From Brevibacterium mcbrellneri ATCC 49030 (GTDB taxonomy: Bacteria > Actinomycetota > Actinomycetes > Actinomycetales > Brevibacteriaceae): 64,000 nucleotides of DNA. Within the stretch, counting starts at the first letter, position 1, and each line of letters begins with the position of its first letter. A model generated the notes under the pieces. It was not told where the DNA came from. It ran no database searches and saw only the letters and a list, made by a program, of their open reading frames with translations. The translations under genes and the position numbers were made by a program. The stretch spans positions 62,001 through 126,000 of the forward strand of contig NZ_ADNU01000046.1 of the NCBI RefSeq assembly GCF_000178455.1, in the 5' to 3' direction. Below are positions 7,999 to 30,774 of this stretch, in pieces.

Positions 7999-8041
7999 AA
8001 TAGCGAAGCGGGTGAGAATTAATCTCACCCGCTTCGCTATT
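7999..8041 (+). terminator. hairpin terminator after qcrB
   Basis: A perfect 19-bp stem (7999-8017 with 8023-8041) and a 5-base loop (ATTAA). No run of T follows on the plus strand, so termination may be less sharp than at a canonical intrinsic site. The stem could also protect the mRNA 3' end. Confidence 0.75.
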
Positions 8042-10742: not shown

Positions 10743-11632
10743 TACTTATCCCCTTCCTTGGTGTAAGGGTTCTTGTACCATTCGGTACGGTCCAGCTCTG
10801 GTCCGAGGCGACCCTCATTGCCTTCAGCCTTGAGCTTTTCGGTGTACGCCTTGTACTCGTCAAGAGAAACAACCTTGACGTTGAAGATCATTTCTGCGTG
10901 GAACTCACCGCAAAGTTCGGCACACTTTCCGAGGTATTCGCCTTCCTTGTCCATGCGAAGGTGAATCTTCTCAGTGCGACCTGGGATCATGTCACGTTTT
11001 TCGAGGAATGCAGGAACCCAGAATGAGTGGATGACATCGCGAGACCGCAGTTCGATCTCGACGTCGGTGTTCGATGGGAGGTACAGAGTCGGTGCGTCGA
11101 TTCCAGGCTGTTCAGTCCCGTCGAGGTTGACCTGCTTTCCGCCGTAGTACGCGTTTTCAGTCAGGTAGTTGAAGTCCCAAGCCCACTGCTTACCAACAAC
11201 CTCGACCTTCACTTCGCCTGGCGTGTCGTCATACACCGTTTTGTCGAGTGTGTTCACAGTTGCGAAGAAGAAGCCCACAACCAAGATGATGGGGAGAACG
11301 GTGTACATGATTTCAACCGGCATGTTGTACTGCACCTGAACGGGCAGACCGCGGTCATTCTTGCGACGACGGAAAGCAATAATGCAGAACAGCATGAGGC
11401 CCCAGGTGATAGCACCTACGGCGAGCAACGCGATCCAACTACCGTTCCACAACGCGATGTAGTGGTCGGTGTGGCTAGTTGCACCTTTTGATTCTGGGGG
11501 GAAGAAGCCGACTTCCCACTGCTCTTTTGTACAACCTGCGAGAAGTACCGTGCTGGCTAGTCCGCCTAATACGCCAACTCGCTTAGCCCAGCGTGCGCCA
11601 GACTTGCGTACTGGCTGATTCGGAGAATCCAC
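10742..11632 (-). CDS. ctaC: cytochrome c oxidase subunit II, lipoprotein
   Basis: Subunit II carries the CuA centre that accepts electrons from QcrC. The protein has a lipoprotein signal ending STVLLAGC, two membrane helices in the mature N-terminal part, and the CuA motif [12 protein letters not shown] near the C-terminus. I chose the GTG at 11632 (MDSPNQPV, 296 residues): it is preceded by AAAGG at suitable distance and puts the signal peptide near the start. The frame is open to 11701, but that extension would place the lipobox too far in. First gene of ctaC-ctaD-ctaF. Confidence 0.94.
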
Positions 11633-23520: not shown

Positions 23521-24255
23521 ATGGCTGACAAAGAAAAACGTTCCCGAGGACTGTTCAAACGTAAACCCAAGGACCCTGCAAATCCCGGTCGTATCGCGCA
23601 GATGCGCGAAGTGTTTAAGCTTGCACGCAAACACTACCCAGCGCTTCCGTGGATCATGCTTGCCGCGGTCGCGGGTATCACGCTTGTGGGTGTGCTCATT
23701 GGACTCCTCCTTCCACCCGTGTGGTTATGGGGAATCCTCGGGTTTATGGGCGGTATTGTTTTTGCCCTCTGGATTTTGGGACGTTACGCGGAGAAAGCCG
23801 CGTTTGCTGAAATGCGTGGGAAACCAGGTGCGATTGGCGCTGTTTTGAACTCGGCTCGCAGGAGCTGGCTCATGGATGAACAGCCCATCGCGGTTGATCC
23901 GCGCACCAAGGACATGGTGTTCCGCTCCACCGGCCGAGGTGGTGTTGTGCTTGTCAGCGAAGGCCCGGCTAATCGCACGTACAAGATGCTTGAAAAAGAG
24001 CGCAAGCGTCACGAGCGTGTGCTGCCGAACGTGCCTGTCACCATTATTCAAGCAGGCGACGGTAAAGACCAGGTGCCCATGGACAACCTCGTGTCCACCG
24101 TGCACAAGCTGCCACGCAAACTGCACAAGGACGAAGTTCTGGCAGTTCGCAAACGCCTCTCATCACTGGGATCGATGACCAGCCGGCCACCCATCCCCAA
24201 GGGCATTGACCCTAACCGTGCGCGTCCCGACCGTCGCGCAATCCGAGGTCGCTAA
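23521..24255 (+). CDS. DUF4191 family integral membrane protein
   Basis: A 244-residue protein with a basic N-terminus, two adjacent membrane helices (about 39-60 and 63-84) and a hydrophilic cytoplasmic C-terminal domain of about 150 residues. The order lipB-lipA-DUF4191-RDD-glnA is conserved from mycobacteria to Micrococcales, and the family is common near lipA. Function unknown. It starts 30 bases after lipA and probably belongs to the same transcript. It ends one base from the convergent RDD gene. Confidence 0.85.
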   Translation: MADKEKRSRGLFKRKPKDPANPGRIAQMREVFKLARKHYPALPWIMLAAVAGITLVGVLIGLLLPPVWLWGILGFMGGIVFALWILGRYAEKAAFAEMRGKPGAIGAVLNSARRSWLMDEQPIAVDPRTKDMVFRSTGRGGVVLVSEGPANRTYKMLEKERKRHERVLPNVPVTIIQAGDGKDQVPMDNLVSTVHKLPRKLHKDEVLAVRKRLSSLGSMTSRPPIPKGIDPNRARPDRRAIRGR

Positions 24256-24256
24256 G

Positions 24257-24667
24257 TTAACTCCGAACCACCACTGATTTCCCCGCATAGTCGTGGAGAC
24301 CTCGGCGGTCAGGATCATAAATGATCGCCGGGATCACCAGGCAGAACGCAAGGTGACGTAACAGGACACGTAGCACGTTCACTTTTTGACCCTCTGTTGT
24401 CATGAGCAGCAGGCCGAAAACTCGGTACCCGATCGTGTACCCCAACAGTGGCAACATGATGAGCACTTCAAGCGAGTACAGCACCCACGTGACCCACTCG
24501 TTGTTGTCAAAAAACAGAACGGACAAGCCAAAAGCGATCCCCCAGTCAATGAAGAGCGCCCCCAAACGACGAATGACGGGGGCAACGGAACCTCGTCCCG
24601 ACTGGGGGAATCCGTACTTCTTACCTGGGTAGTCGTTGGCCGACTGCGAGCCTGCTGTTCGATTCAC
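24257..24667 (-). CDS. RDD family membrane protein
   Basis: About 136 residues with three or four helices. It carries the RDD features: an Arg and Asp pair in RRLGALFIDWGIAF at the start of helix 1, and a late Asp region near RRGLHDYAGKSVV. RDD proteins are of uncertain role; some are linked to ion or osmotic homeostasis. GTG 24667 is taken as the start because the family domain begins soon after; the frame is open to 24760, into the glnA promoter. Divergent from glnA. Confidence 0.82.
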   Translation of the reverse strand: MNRTAGSQSANDYPGKKYGFPQSGRGSVAPVIRRLGALFIDWGIAFGLSVLFFDNNEWVTWVLYSLEVLIMLPLLGYTIGYRVFGLLLMTTEGQKVNVLRVLLRHLAFCLVIPAIIYDPDRRGLHDYAGKSVVVRS

Positions 24668-24753
24668 CCGCCCAGTGTACCTGTGCGCCCTGCCGCCGGC
24701 ACCCATCGCCCTCACTCTTACCCACCTCGGGAAATACCCAATTCGGCCGGGCC

Positions 24754-24769
24754 GAAACACGCACGAAAC
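24754..24769 (+). promoter_or_regulatory. candidate GlnR box upstream of glnA
   Basis: GAAAC-n6-GAAAC (24754-24758 and 24765-24769). The GlnR consensus in actinobacteria is gTnAC-n6-GaAAC. The second half site matches fully; the first differs only in the second base. Position, 74 bases before the glnA start, is suitable for an activator. No GlnR gene is in the window. Confidence 0.4.
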
Positions 24770-24842
24770 GATTCAGACATGGTTCCTTCATGCTTGGCCG
24801 TTAAACTCGAATCACTGGTGAAAAACCCGATTAGGAGTAAAT

Positions 24843-26267
24843 GTGTTCTCGACACCAAGTGAACTAGTTGCCTATCTTGCTGATCACGACGTGAAGTTTG
24901 TGGACGTCAGGTTCTGTGACCTGCCGGGAGTAGTGCAACGTTTCAATCTTCCAGCTAGTGCATACGGGGAGGATGAGATTCGAGACGGCTTACTCTTTGA
25001 TGGGTCGTCAGTTCGCGGGTTCCAAACGATCAACGAATCAGACATGAAGCTGCTTGCCGATGTCAGCTCGGCGTACATCGACCCGTTCCGCGATGCGAAA
25101 ACACTCGTTGTCAACCACTCGATTGTGGATCCGTTTACCGATGAACCGTATTCGCGCGACTCCCGTCAGGTCGCGGCCAAGGCCGAAGCCTACTTGAAGT
25201 CCACTGGAATCGCGGACACCGTGTTCTTTGGCGCAGAAGCCGAGTTCTATATGTTCGACGAAATTCGCTACTCGGTAACACCAGGCCACAGCTTCTACAA
25301 GATCGACTCGGAAGAAGCCGCCTGGAACACCGGGCGCGAAGAACTTGGTGGCAACCTGGGCTACAAGACCCCCATGAACGGCGGGTACTTCACAGCGGGC
25401 TCACAGGACAAAGACGCGGATATTCGTGATGAGATTTCTCTCACCCTCGAGTCGATCGGGTTTGAGATGGAGCGTGCGCACCACGAATGCGGAACCGCTG
25501 GGCAACAGGAAATCAACTACAAGTTCGCCACTTTACAGAAGGCGGGCGACCAGCTTCTCGACTTCAAGTACATTGTTCGCTCAGTGGCTGAACAGCGGGG
25601 CAAGACGGTCACGTTTATGCCTCGCCCGCTCATGGACGACAGTGGTTCGGGAATGCACTGCCACCAGTCGCTCTGGAAAGACGGTAAGCCTCTGTTCTAC
25701 GACGAAAACGGATACGCCGGGCTTTCGGACCTAGCCCGCTGGTACATCGGTGGCCTCATCGAACACGCAGGCGCTGTCTTGGCCTTCACCAACCCCACCA
25801 TCAACTCCTACCGCCGTCTGGTTCCTGGATACGAAGCCCCTATCAACTTGGTGTACTCGGCGCGTAACCGTTCGGCTGCGATCCGCATTCCAGTCACGGG
25901 AGACTCCCCTAAGGCAAAGCGTCTGGAGTTCCGTGCACCGGACCCTTCGTCCAACCCATATCTGGCGTTCTCGGCTCAGCTCATGGCTGGTTTGGATGGA
26001 ATCCGTAACCGCATTGAGCCACCAGAGCCAGTCGACAAGGACCTGTACGAGCTCCCGCCAGAGGAGTTGCAGGACATCAAGCACGTGCCTGCATCGTTGG
26101 AAGAGGCGCTCGACGAACTCGACAACGACCGCGACTTCCTCACACAGGGAGACGTGTTCACCGATGACCTCATCGACACGTGGATCAACTACAAGCGCAC
26201 CCACGAAATCGACGTGATGCGCCTGCGCCCAACGCCTACAGAGTTCGAACTGTACTACTCTCTGTAA
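24843..26267 (+). CDS. glnA: glutamine synthetase, type I, adenylylation-regulated
   Basis: The main ammonia-assimilating enzyme (GSI-beta, dodecamer). The 474-residue protein has the N-terminal latch motif [10 protein letters not shown], the DGSSVRGF region, the ATP-binding region, the Glu/Arg active-site motifs, and the adenylylation site in LYELPP with Tyr402 in the usual place. GTG 24843 follows AGGAG by five bases. GlnE, which modifies that tyrosine, is encoded 1.5 kb downstream. A terminator closes the gene. Confidence 0.97.
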
Positions 26268-26301
26268 CAGCAACGAACGACTGAGCACATAGAGTCGCTG
26301 A

Positions 26302-26343
26302 GCATATACACCGGCTGTTCACGGCCGGTGTATATGCTTTTTC
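26302..26343 (+). terminator. strong intrinsic terminator after glnA, directly before mtr
   Basis: A perfect 14-bp stem (26302-26315 with 26324-26337), an 8-base loop and TTTTTCT. It ends at the base next to the mtr start codon (26345). The right arm contains TATATG at 26331-26336, placed correctly to act as a -10 for a transcript starting at the mtr ATG. Confidence 0.9.
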
Positions 26344-26344
26344 T

Positions 26345-27787
26345 ATGGCACATTTTGATCTTCTTGTTATTGGGACGGGTTCTGGGAATTCAATCGTTGA
26401 CGACCGCTTCAGCCATCTCAAGGTTGCGATCGCTGAAGAGTGGTTGTTTGGAGGAACGTGCCTGAACGTTGGGTGCATTCCTACGAAAATGCTCGTGTAT
26501 CCGGCCGAGGTCGCACACAGTTCCGCAGATTCGACGCACCTGAATCTGCAGACGAGTTTTAACGGCGTTGATTGGCCCGGACTTTCTCACCGAATCTTCG
26601 ACCGTATCGACGCGATCGAAGCGGACGGTCGAGACTATCGCACGAATCGACTCGACAACGTCACGGTGTATCCAGATCGTGTCCACTTTACCGGCCGTAA
26701 TTCCGCCCAAACCGCCTCTGGCGACACGTTCACCTTTGAACGGGTAGTGATCGCTACCGGGTCCTCCCCCACTCAGCTCAAGGCCGCTGGTCTGGACTGG
26801 GACCGGGTCGACACAGAAAACTACCCTGTCAAAACCTCAAACTCGATCATGCGGATCCCTACACTCCCGCGTTCTCTCGTGATTGTTGGTTCAGGTTTTG
26901 TTGCTGTGGAGTTCGCACACATTTTCTCGTCTCTAGGTGTCGAGGTCACCGTGTTGGCCCGCGGAAACCGATTGCTAGGTAATCACGACCACGACGTCTC
27001 CCAGGCGTTCACGCAACAATTCTCTGAAAGCGTCAACGTGCGTTTCGGAGTAGAAGTTGAATCCGTTGACACAGCAGACGGAGTCACCCTCACACTCAAG
27101 GAAACGGGGCGTGCGGAGGGGGCGGACACCTCGGCGGTGGAAGCCGACCTCATGCTGGTAGCCGTGGGGCGAACGCGCTCCACTCACGCACTCAACGTAG
27201 ACGCCTTGGACGCCACCACAGACGGTGACCGGCTGGTCGTCGACGAGTACCAACGCGTTATGTCGTCAAGCGGTGAACCTCTTGATGGGGTGTGGGCACT
27301 GGGTGACGTGTGCTCAGAGCACTTGCTTAAGCACGTGGCCAACGCAGAGGCTCGCACTGTACAGCACAACATTTTGGTAGATGTAGGGCTTGAACCAACG
27401 CCTGTGAGCACCGACCACAGCGTGATTCCGGCAGCCGTGTTTAGCCACCCGCAGATCGGTTCCGTGGGTGCGACGGAAGAGCAGTTGCGTGAAGAAGGTG
27501 TCGATTTTGTGTCGAGCACATGTGAGTACGGCGGCGTTGCTTTCGGGTGGGCGTTAAACGCGCCTGGTTTTGCGAAGGTACTCGCCCACAAAACCACCCG
27601 GCAAATTCTTGGCGCTCACGTCGTAGGTGAACAAGCGGCCTCGCTGGTTCAGCTTTTTGTGCAGGCTATGGCGTTCAAGATTCCCGCTGACAAGATGGCC
27701 CGTGGGCAAATGTGGATCCACCCCGCCCTGACCGAGGTCGTTGAAAACGCGCTCTTGGGACTCAACTTTGGCGAAGACGGACGTTAA
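26345..27787 (+). CDS. mtr: mycothione reductase
   Basis: An NADPH-dependent flavoprotein that reduces mycothiol disulfide, the actinobacterial counterpart of glutathione reductase. The 480-residue protein has the redox pair in GGTCLNVGCIPTKM, the FAD site DLLVIGTGSGN, the NADPH site VGSGFVAVEFA and the catalytic histidine in HPALTEVVENALL. GTGSGN in place of GGGPGG is characteristic of the mycothione reductase branch. There is no room for a Shine-Dalgarno site beyond the glnA terminator, so a leaderless message is likely. Its stop overlaps convergent glnE by four bases. Confidence 0.93.
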   Translation: MAHFDLLVIGTGSGNSIVDDRFSHLKVAIAEEWLFGGTCLNVGCIPTKMLVYPAEVAHSSADSTHLNLQTSFNGVDWPGLSHRIFDRIDAIEADGRDYRTNRLDNVTVYPDRVHFTGRNSAQTASGDTFTFERVVIATGSSPTQLKAAGLDWDRVDTENYPVKTSNSIMRIPTLPRSLVIVGSGFVAVEFAHIFSSLGVEVTVLARGNRLLGNHDHDVSQAFTQQFSESVNVRFGVEVESVDTADGVTLTLKETGRAEGADTSAVEADLMLVAVGRTRSTHALNVDALDATTDGDRLVVDEYQRVMSSSGEPLDGVWALGDVCSEHLLKHVANAEARTVQHNILVDVGLEPTPVSTDHSVIPAAVFSHPQIGSVGATEEQLREEGVDFVSSTCEYGGVAFGWALNAPGFAKVLAHKTTRQILGAHVVGEQAASLVQLFVQAMAFKIPADKMARGQMWIHPALTEVVENALLGLNFGEDGR

Positions 27788-30774
27788 ATGTCTTCCGGTT
27801 CGAACCCGAAGAACACGTGTTCCATGACTTTTCGGGCCCTGCGCGTTGCACCCAAATAGTCGTCAACGAGTTGGTACCCGCCACCTGGTTCGTAACCCAA
27901 GAGAAGCGCGATTGCTTCAAGTTCTGTTTCGTCAGTGGGAAGAGAGTCTGAACCGCGGCCCTTGTAAAGAACAGCAGCGCTGCGCACACGTGAAGCGATT
28001 GTCCACGCGGCTTCAAGTTTGTGAGCTGAGTCTTCGTCGATGAGCCCGTTCTGGGTGGCGGCGTGCAGAGCGTCAAGGGTGGATGTTGTGCGTAGCCCTG
28101 GGTGCGTATGAGCATGCTGGAGCTGCAACATTTGGACGGTCCACTCAACGTCACTGAGCCCGCCAGTCCCTAGCTTGAGATGGCGTTTCTTGTCACCACC
28201 TCGGGGAAGGCGTTCACTTTCCATGCGCGCCTTTAACCGACGCATCTGCATTAGCGAGGACTCCGGGACTTCTTCGGGGTAGCGCAGCGGGTCAATAAGC
28301 CGAGTAAATGCCTGCCCCAGCTCTTCATCTCCGGCGATTGGACGAGCACGCAAAAGTGCTTGCGCCTCCCACGGTTCGGACCATGCGGCATAATACTTGG
28401 CGTAAGACGAAAGAGTACGAACCAATGGCCCGGACTTACCTTCGGGACGCAGATCGGCGTCAATATCCACAATGGGTTCAGCAGACCTGGTTTCAAGCTC
28501 TGACGTCAGGGTCAGAGCTACCTGCTTGGCATGTGACGGAAGCGCTTCGCGTTGAGCCGGGGTGAGCGTCTCACCGGGCTCATACACGAACATCACATCG
28601 GCATCCGAATAGTAGCCGATTTCCGCGCCGCCTAGACGCCCCATCGCTATGATGCAGAATCGGTAGTCATCAATGCCAGACATCGCGTCGAGCCTCATGC
28701 GCACGTGCGAAAGCGCTTGGTGCACGGTGATGTCCATAGCGTTGGTCAGGGCTGTCATGACAGTGTCCAAGTCGTAGAGTCCCAACGTGTCCGCCAAGGA
28801 CGTGCGGAGAATCTCCTCGCCATACACCTTGCGAATAGCAGCAACTCCGTCATCGCGCCGACGACTGCGTTCGCGCATGCGGGTAGCGATTGCGTCCGGT
28901 TCGCTGGGCTGTAGACGTTCGTTGTTTCCTAACCACTGGACCGACTGGGGGTGCGAAATCAATAGATCGGATGCAAAACGAGAAAGCGACAAAACGCGGG
29001 CCATGTTTTTCACGGCCACACCAGAGTCACGCAGCATAGCCAAGTACCACGTGGTGTGTGACAGACCCTCTGACAACCTACGGAAGGCCACCAAACCAGC
29101 ATCGGGGTCGACACCTCGGGAGAACCAATCAAGAAGCGCTGGCAAAACCTGACGCTGCACATAGGCCACCCGATTCAAGCCCGTGGACAGTGCGCGAATA
29201 TGGCGCATAGCGGCGGCGGGATCCTGATAGCCAAAAGCTGTCAACCGGTCACGCGCAACTGCCTCGCTCACGGTTGACATCTGCGCACTTCCCGTCGCCG
29301 CATCAAGGATAGGCCGGTAGAAAATCTGCTTGTGCAACGCTCTCACCGCGCGCATGTGCCCCGCCAGTTCCTTCTTCAAACGGTCTACACTGCGCTCCTC
29401 GACGGGATACACGCTTCGGGCTAACGCTCTGAGCTTGCTGGCGCGTTCCGGAAGAACCGCTTCACGAGCCATGCGCGGAATCTGCAAGCGGTGCTCAACA
29501 ACGCGCATGAACCTATATGCCGATGCCAGTGTGCGTGCCTCATGCGACGCTAAATAGTTGTGCGAGCTCAAAATGCGGAGCGCACCACCGGTTGAACGCA
29601 CTCTGAGGTCTTCATCGTGCGGGCCGTGAACCAGCTGCAGAAGCTGCACCGTGAACTCCACGTCACGCAAGCCACCGGGACCAAGCTTGATGTGGCGATC
29701 CAGCTCGTTCTTAGGGATCAGCGACACCACACGACGTCGCATGGACCTCACTTCAGAAACGAAACCGGACCGCGCACCGGCCGTCCACACAAACGGTGAC
29801 ACGTCATCCTCAAACTGCTCGCACAATTCTGGGCAACCAGCGATCGGACGGGCTTTCAAAAGCGCTTGGAACTCCCAGTTATGCGCAACTTTCTGGTAGT
29901 ACTGAACGAACTCGTCGATCGTACGCACCAGAGCACCCGATTTACCTTCAGGACGCAGAGCTGTGTCAATCTCCCACAGCGCCGGTTCATGTGCGCCCCC
30001 AGATATCAGTTCAGTAACCCGAGTTGCTAAATGAGTGGCCTGTTCACGAACCTCATCGTCGAGTTCTTCACCTTCACGTGGCGCATACGCGAAAATCACA
30101 TCGACATCGCTCACGTAGTTAAGTTCGCGCGCACCACACTTGCCCATCGCCACAACAGCGATACGGGCACGTAGACGCTCCCCCTGTTCGACCTCGGCGA
30201 TCTTATACGCGGCCTGAAAGACCGCGGCAGCCAAATCTGACAGAACCCGGGTGACATCCTCCACAATCTCTTCTGGCTGCGCATGCTCAAGATCCTGTAC
30301 AACAAGGCGCGTGACCAAATCCCGGTATGTACGGCGAAGTGCAGTAATACCCTCATCCCCCGTCAGCAACGACCCCTTGTCCGCTAACGCTTCAGTGAAA
30401 GTGTCCTCGAGTGCCTCTGGAGTAGAAGCAAGTGAGTCGATGAAGTCCGGTTCATGTGCCAGGGTGCGGATGAACTGTGGCCAGCGAACGAGGTGGTCGA
30501 CTGTTGCCTCCGAACCACCGGAGACGATGATCAGCCGGTTAAGCAGAATGGGCGACTCGTCGAGTAGCTGTCGCAGGTTGATGTCGTTCTGCTGGCACGC
30601 CTCGGCAATCCGCACAAGGCCAAGTGCGGCCGAATCCCGGTCAGCCGCCGCAGCCAGCGCACTTTCCGGATCCTGAGCTAGTTGCGTGCCCAACATTTCA
30701 TCAAACTGGCCCAAGAAACGTTGCGTTCGCTCAAGTGCCTGACTGCGATGACGAGCAGGATCTTTTTTACGCAT
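27784..30774 (-). CDS. glnE: bifunctional glutamine-synthetase adenylyltransferase/deadenylylase
   Basis: GlnE adds or removes AMP on the regulatory tyrosine of GlnA according to nitrogen status. The 996-residue protein has the normal double layout: an N-terminal nucleotidyltransferase domain (motif GKCGARELNYVSDVDVIF) and a C-terminal one (GRLGGAEIGYYSDADVMF), each with a helical GlnE-specific region after it. The start overlaps the glnA2 stop (TAATG), so glnA2 and glnE are cotranscribed. Target presumably Tyr402 of the GlnA encoded at 24.8 kb. Confidence 0.96.
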   Translation of the reverse strand: MRKKDPARHRSQALERTQRFLGQFDEMLGTQLAQDPESALAAAADRDSAALGLVRIAEACQQNDINLRQLLDESPILLNRLIIVSGGSEATVDHLVRWPQFIRTLAHEPDFIDSLASTPEALEDTFTEALADKGSLLTGDEGITALRRTYRDLVTRLVVQDLEHAQPEEIVEDVTRVLSDLAAAVFQAAYKIAEVEQGERLRARIAVVAMGKCGARELNYVSDVDVIFAYAPREGEELDDEVREQATHLATRVTELISGGAHEPALWEIDTALRPEGKSGALVRTIDEFVQYYQKVAHNWEFQALLKARPIAGCPELCEQFEDDVSPFVWTAGARSGFVSEVRSMRRRVVSLIPKNELDRHIKLGPGGLRDVEFTVQLLQLVHGPHDEDLRVRSTGGALRILSSHNYLASHEARTLASAYRFMRVVEHRLQIPRMAREAVLPERASKLRALARSVYPVEERSVDRLKKELAGHMRAVRALHKQIFYRPILDAATGSAQMSTVSEAVARDRLTAFGYQDPAAAMRHIRALSTGLNRVAYVQRQVLPALLDWFSRGVDPDAGLVAFRRLSEGLSHTTWYLAMLRDSGVAVKNMARVLSLSRFASDLLISHPQSVQWLGNNERLQPSEPDAIATRMRERSRRRDDGVAAIRKVYGEEILRTSLADTLGLYDLDTVMTALTNAMDITVHQALSHVRMRLDAMSGIDDYRFCIIAMGRLGGAEIGYYSDADVMFVYEPGETLTPAQREALPSHAKQVALTLTSELETRSAEPIVDIDADLRPEGKSGPLVRTLSSYAKYYAAWSEPWEAQALLRARPIAGDEELGQAFTRLIDPLRYPEEVPESSLMQMRRLKARMESERLPRGGDKKRHLKLGTGGLSDVEWTVQMLQLQHAHTHPGLRTTSTLDALHAATQNGLIDEDSAHKLEAAWTIASRVRSAAVLYKGRGSDSLPTDETELEAIALLLGYEPGGGYQLVDDYLGATRRARKVMEHVFFGFEPEDI

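Follow-up and report, generated by a model that had tools for sequence, protein, structure and literature searches.

How transcription ends at glnA and begins at mtr is the question raised by a 64,000-nucleotide stretch of the Brevibacterium mcbrellneri ATCC 49030 genome (hereafter the window; contig NZ_ADNU01000046.1, positions 62,001–126,000), in which a hairpin with its T run fills the space before the mtr start codon. The glnA gene (24843–26267, plus strand) encodes a type I glutamine synthetase (TIGR00653, E 8.8e-189, above the cut-off) and mtr (26345–27787, plus strand) a mycothione reductase (NF005884, E 1e-167, above the cut-off; TIGR03452, E 1.3e-153, below the cut-off of that profile), and the two co-oriented genes are separated by 77 nt. 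As glnE, for glutamine synthetase adenylyltransferase (27784–30774, minus strand), converges on mtr with overlapping stop codons, mtr would be the sole gene downstream of any merged element in this gap. Judged from sequence and its comparison among relatives, positions 26300–26344 are very probably the intrinsic terminator of glnA, with a right arm and T tract that serve at the same time as the core promoter of a leaderless mtr.

The nearest species in the comparison, G025 (2.41 Mb), has an Mtr protein with 88% identity. The best named relative of Mtr was found in Brevibacterium sp. ZH18 (L003), of the same genus, in which the glnA–mtr gap is 332 nt, as it is in G075, likewise of this genus. 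A search of a plasmid collection with 301 bases of the glnA–mtr region returned no match.

The hairpin after glnA

In the predicted fold, positions 26300–26317 pair with 26322–26339 around a loop at 26318–26321, giving a plus-strand hairpin (26300–26339) of 18 pairs, two of them G-T, with an energy of −31.6 kcal/mol (z −8.1; 0 of 200 shuffles equally stable). The same arms are found in G025. An earlier note on this DNA had correctly described the perfect 14-bp core, in which GCATATACACCGGC (26302–26315) is complementary to GCCGGTGTATATGC (26324–26337), as well as the T run (26338–26342) and the ATG (26345–26347); it had placed the T run one base before the ATG, where there are in fact two, C at 26343 and T at 26344. 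The end of glnA thus carries the two components of an intrinsic terminator, a stable hairpin and then a T run, and the tract TTTTTCT (26338–26344, plus strand) would be both the terminator tail and the spacer between −10 and start. A simple terminator scan of 24000–29000 returned five sites, against 5.3 expected by chance, with 18 pairs in the glnA–mtr hairpin and 5–6 in each of the other four. A bidirectional terminator is not indicated, as the minus strand past the stem is C-rich and mixed (CAGCGACTC) and has no T run. No Rfam family matched at its gathering score, the one sub-threshold match reaching 19.3 bits against 100 (E 0.76).

A hairpin 3′ of glnA was present in the genus rows that were read, with sequences unrelated to one another. 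By eye, such a hairpin was also recognized in G013, G069 and G008, though no mtr lies behind glnA there. As glnA has a hairpin even where mtr does not follow, the hairpin would serve glnA. The loci without mtr after glnA are L155 (G013), L156 (G069) and L157 (G008); G069 and G008 have no mtr match anywhere at E 1e-60, although on the glnA tree they group with the window's species.

The start of mtr in the window and in relatives

The frame upstream of the ATG at 26345 is open back to a stop at 26282 and contains no earlier ATG, GTG or TTG, and the mycothione reductase profile aligned to Mtr from residue 1. The stem and T run stand directly before this ATG, with no Shine-Dalgarno sequence, and fill the space that a ribosome-binding site would need, as the earlier note had pointed out. 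Its placing of a −10 in the right arm of the stem also held good, in the form of TATGCT (26333–26338, plus strand), which occupies −12 to −7 and lies fully within the stem, some seven bases from the start codon; this prediction draws on the sequence, on a genome-wide TANNNT peak and on the mtr genes of relatives. The hexamer that the note had named, TATATG (26331–26336), was rejected in favor of TATGCT, since it lies two bases off, at −14 to −9, and does not end in T. The distance to the −10 predicts a transcription start at the first base of the ATG (26345, plus strand). The predicted mRNA begins AUGGCACAUUUUGAUCUUC, and its first 19 nt are unpaired in a fold of the first 60 nt; in the minimum-energy fold of a longer read-through RNA of the window's species, the AUG is base-paired with upstream bases. 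The gap contains one further TANNNT, TAGAGT at 26290, which is missing from G025. No −35 was recognized at mtr (best 2 of 6 positions), and a generic promoter scan missed the site. Nor were TTGACA-like hexamers (at least 4 of 6) enriched at leaderless candidates: 8/36 and 6/32 of these had one in the two genomes, as against 10 and 7 when the control window, 20 nt farther upstream, was examined.

The frequency of the motif before start codons was determined in 239.5 kb of the window genome (183 genes, 468 candidate ATG/GTG starts) and 400 kb of G025 (288 genes, 760 starts), with genes called by a simple codon-usage caller. In the window genome, TANNNT had 24 occurrences at −12 and 12 at −13, against a mean of 3.2 per other offset from −6 to −30, or about 0.7% of candidate starts for any one such offset (3.2/468); the corresponding numbers in G025 were 21, 11 and 3.3. 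Leaderless-looking genes that carry the −10 in this position are thus common in both species, and the hexamer TATGCT itself recurs at some of the others. A divergent gene pair, one member of which encodes a DUF3090 protein, has only 37 bases between its ATGs and TANNNT at −12 of each, and thus two leaderless-looking promoters back to back within 37 bp; it is present in both species, on the window's own contig upstream of the window (L163, 19141–19183) and in G025 (L133, 5473–5515).

Among 57 genomes of the genus, the window's own included, 55 had a match to mtr; G013, a distant match (44% identity) that does not start at residue 1, was left out, leaving 54. TANNNT was observed at −12 in nine of these and at −13 in seven (16/54); none has it elsewhere between −6 and −30. 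The remaining 38 comprise 36 with a purine-rich motif from a loose list (for example, GGAGGGATGGACT before TTG and CAGGGATGGACA before ATG) and two with none listed; three TANNNT rows (G070, G017 and G035) match the loose list too, through TAGGAT as their −10 or through the bases that follow. The mtr matches of G017, G032, G016, G004 and G014 each contain one TGA, perhaps where the match overruns the normal stop. Outside the genus, 61 of 79 loci (L004–L082) were usable, that is, had an oriented match, a start codon close to residue 1 and sufficient sequence upstream, and the other 18 were not counted. Here TANNNT occurred at −12 in 7 and at −13 in 18 (25/61), at −27 in two, and at no further offset from −6 to −30. 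In a midpoint-rooted glnA tree of 55 rows, from which G036 and G015 are absent for want of a usable glnA fragment, the 37 motif-less rows formed one clade (100/100), and the 15 rows called leaderless, a label that denotes the same TANNNT motif and not mapped starts, formed a grade around it, together with three further rows in which mtr does not follow glnA. The recurrence of the motif in the genus and the outgroup and this grade on the tree make leaderless mtr look old and widespread.

Overlap of stem and predicted −10, and competing explanations

In the window's species and G025, the last paired base of the stem lies at −6, with the −10 inside the stem. In G064 it adjoins the −10, at −13; in G002, where it lies at −14, a single base intervenes; and in the other leaderless rows it is farther upstream, as located with a simple stem finder. 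Full overlap was thus seen in two species, and near-contact in two others. The stems after glnA in G064 (L118) and G002 (L160) are strong and G+C-rich, have no T run and stand at an mtr −10 of TAGACT. The five shortest glnA–mtr gaps, of 60–77 nt, all belong to leaderless rows. With a leaderless promoter that looks old and a hairpin that follows glnA even without mtr, two existing elements seem to have merged, each of them presumably older than their overlap, which would have arisen before the split of the window's species and G025. As only these two species, close kin, have full overlap, a single chance event of gap shortening may account for it.

The fused geometry, defined as a stem with 12 or more pairs whose end lies at −14 to −1, TANNNT at −12 or −13, and an ATG or GTG, occurred once in the 239.5 kb of the window genome, at mtr, and never in first-order Markov sequence of fivefold length. 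In 477 kb of G025 it occurred twice, at mtr and in a weaker case, with two in the fivefold Markov control. The weaker case (L134, about 11448–11490) starts with GTG, preceded by TAAAGT at −12; its stem, of 13 pairs including G-T pairs, ends at −11, and it may be either another weak overlap or a product of chance. Of the 468 candidate starts of the window genome, one, that of mtr, has a strong stem that ends no more than 15 nt away, and so do four of the 760 in the G025 sample, in which mtr is not contained; none of these four is among the 32 TANNNT starts there.

We propose that the merged element would act at two levels. As RNA, the 18-pair hairpin followed by UUUUUCU would release the glnA transcript at about 26342–26345. 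As DNA, TATGCT would be the −10 for the housekeeping sigma factor, without a recognizable −35; transcription would start at the A of the ATG, and the mtr mRNA, beginning with AUG, would be translated without a ribosome-binding site. Because polymerase engaged in one function would cover the DNA of the other, termination and initiation should exclude each other. The proposal of the earlier note that one short sequence both ends glnA and starts a leaderless mtr message is thus supported by the comparison, in that TANNNT recurs before mtr in the genus and the outgroup, the leaderless rows form a grade, the motif peaks genome-wide, and glnA hairpins exist without mtr.

Other explanations were weighed against this one. 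It is very unlikely that mtr is mainly read from a glnA–mtr message, with the hairpin as a partial terminator or a stabilizing or processing site. Such read-through would suit two co-oriented genes 77 nt apart, and in C. glutamicum coverage fell only gradually at 773 of the 1,383 predicted terminators (PMC3890552); however, the ATG, lacking a ribosome-binding site, would stand right at the base of the hairpin, the AUG is paired when the longer RNA takes its minimum-energy fold, and relatives have retained one of two elements before mtr, a −10 or a purine-rich ribosome-site motif. That the terminator is real but TATGCT a chance match, with the mtr promoter elsewhere, for example within glnA or at TAGAGT (26290–26295), appears highly improbable: TAGAGT fits TANNNT, the TA-rich right arm could match accidentally and there is no −35, yet G025 retains TATGCT and not TAGAGT, a start near 26302 would yield an mRNA beginning with the terminator, and TANNNT falls at a given offset in so few candidate starts.

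Conservation is the ground for a third alternative, in which the palindrome binds a protein as an operator at the mtr promoter and is not, or not mainly, a terminator. Between the window genome and G025, the outer arms, the T run and the last two bases are identical, in a palindrome that spans 36 bp in both species, despite identity at fourfold sites of only 51% in mtr (128/250) and 63% in glnA (144/228). We considered stem identity as a sign of extra sequence-specific constraint and rejected it, because other hairpins of the window are equally conserved: among seven mappable, intergenic-looking ones, the mtr stem is identical at 34 of 36 positions and others at 16/16, 33/34, 32/32 and 17/18, with 17/22 and 15/20 in two weaker hairpins. 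Thus, the identity of the mtr stem is no sign of a further function. An eighth hairpin, near-perfect, of 19 bp and without a T run, at 7999–8041 of the window has no counterpart in the G025 alignment. Moreover, no second copy of the palindrome with up to three mismatches was found in the window genome and G025, and no copy at all in three relatives; the T run is one-sided, and the glnA hairpins of relatives are unrelated in sequence. An operator, which would then have this single site, therefore seems very improbable.

Comparison with known systems

If the merged element is as proposed, the end of one transcript and the start of the next would lie about two bases apart, a limit case of compaction, and in genomes rich in leaderless genes, promoters may lie hidden in terminators that are called right before an ATG. 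As a mutation in the right arm would alter both promoter and stem, and a change in the left arm would restore the stem alone, the two functions should be cleanly separable, which would suit the site well to studies of how polymerase recycles once it has terminated and of how termination and initiation interfere with each other. Narrow literature searches, judged by titles and abstract openings, showed no bacterial case of a promoter naturally placed within the stem of a terminator among the matches listed, a weak negative, and at the same depth no Brevibacterium transcript map was found in the literature on Brevibacterium and leaderless genes.

Post-termination recycling offers one comparison. 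Polymerase often remains on the DNA after intrinsic termination in vitro and can restart at nearby promoters (PMC6978380), and a start site lies within 1000 bp of 85% of 371 major termination sites in E. coli and within 952 bp of every one of the 888 in B. subtilis (PMC11347151). Like such pairs, glnA–mtr has a predicted promoter near a terminator in the same orientation; unlike them, it has the two at a distance of about zero. Recycling was shown with E. coli polymerase in vitro, and at glnA–mtr it would be hypothetical. A hand-over device, in which polymerase stays on the DNA after releasing the glnA RNA, keeps or regains sigma and restarts at the mtr −10 so that mtr follows glnA, is conceivable but unlikely; if true, mtr (thiol redox repair) would track glnA (nitrogen assimilation) without a common mRNA. 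On this reading an antisense start towards glnA could occur as well, since the palindrome puts TATGCT on both strands.

Leaderless genes and intrinsic terminators offer further comparisons. For S. avermitilis, TANNNT has been reported as the −10 consensus (PMC8780764), and the leaderless share is given as 22.2% in that species (PMC8780764), 33% (707/2,147) in C. glutamicum (PMC3890552) and 47.5% (1016/2139) in M. smegmatis (PMC5741613), with translation without a leader documented in other actinobacteria (PMC3890552, PMC5741613). Like these genes, mtr has TANNNT just before its ATG and no ribosome-binding site, but its start is a predicted one and its predicted −10 lies inside the terminator stem of the upstream gene. 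Similarly, the glnA hairpin has the G+C-containing stem, short loop and T run of intrinsic (Rho-independent) terminators, whereas its T run lies two bases from the next start codon and would be common to the mtr promoter. It also resembles bidirectional terminators in being a palindrome between genes, and differs from them in its one-sided T run and the co-orientation of the genes. Terminator and promoter are thus each ordinary; it is their near-complete overlap that is unusually compact, and easily tested.
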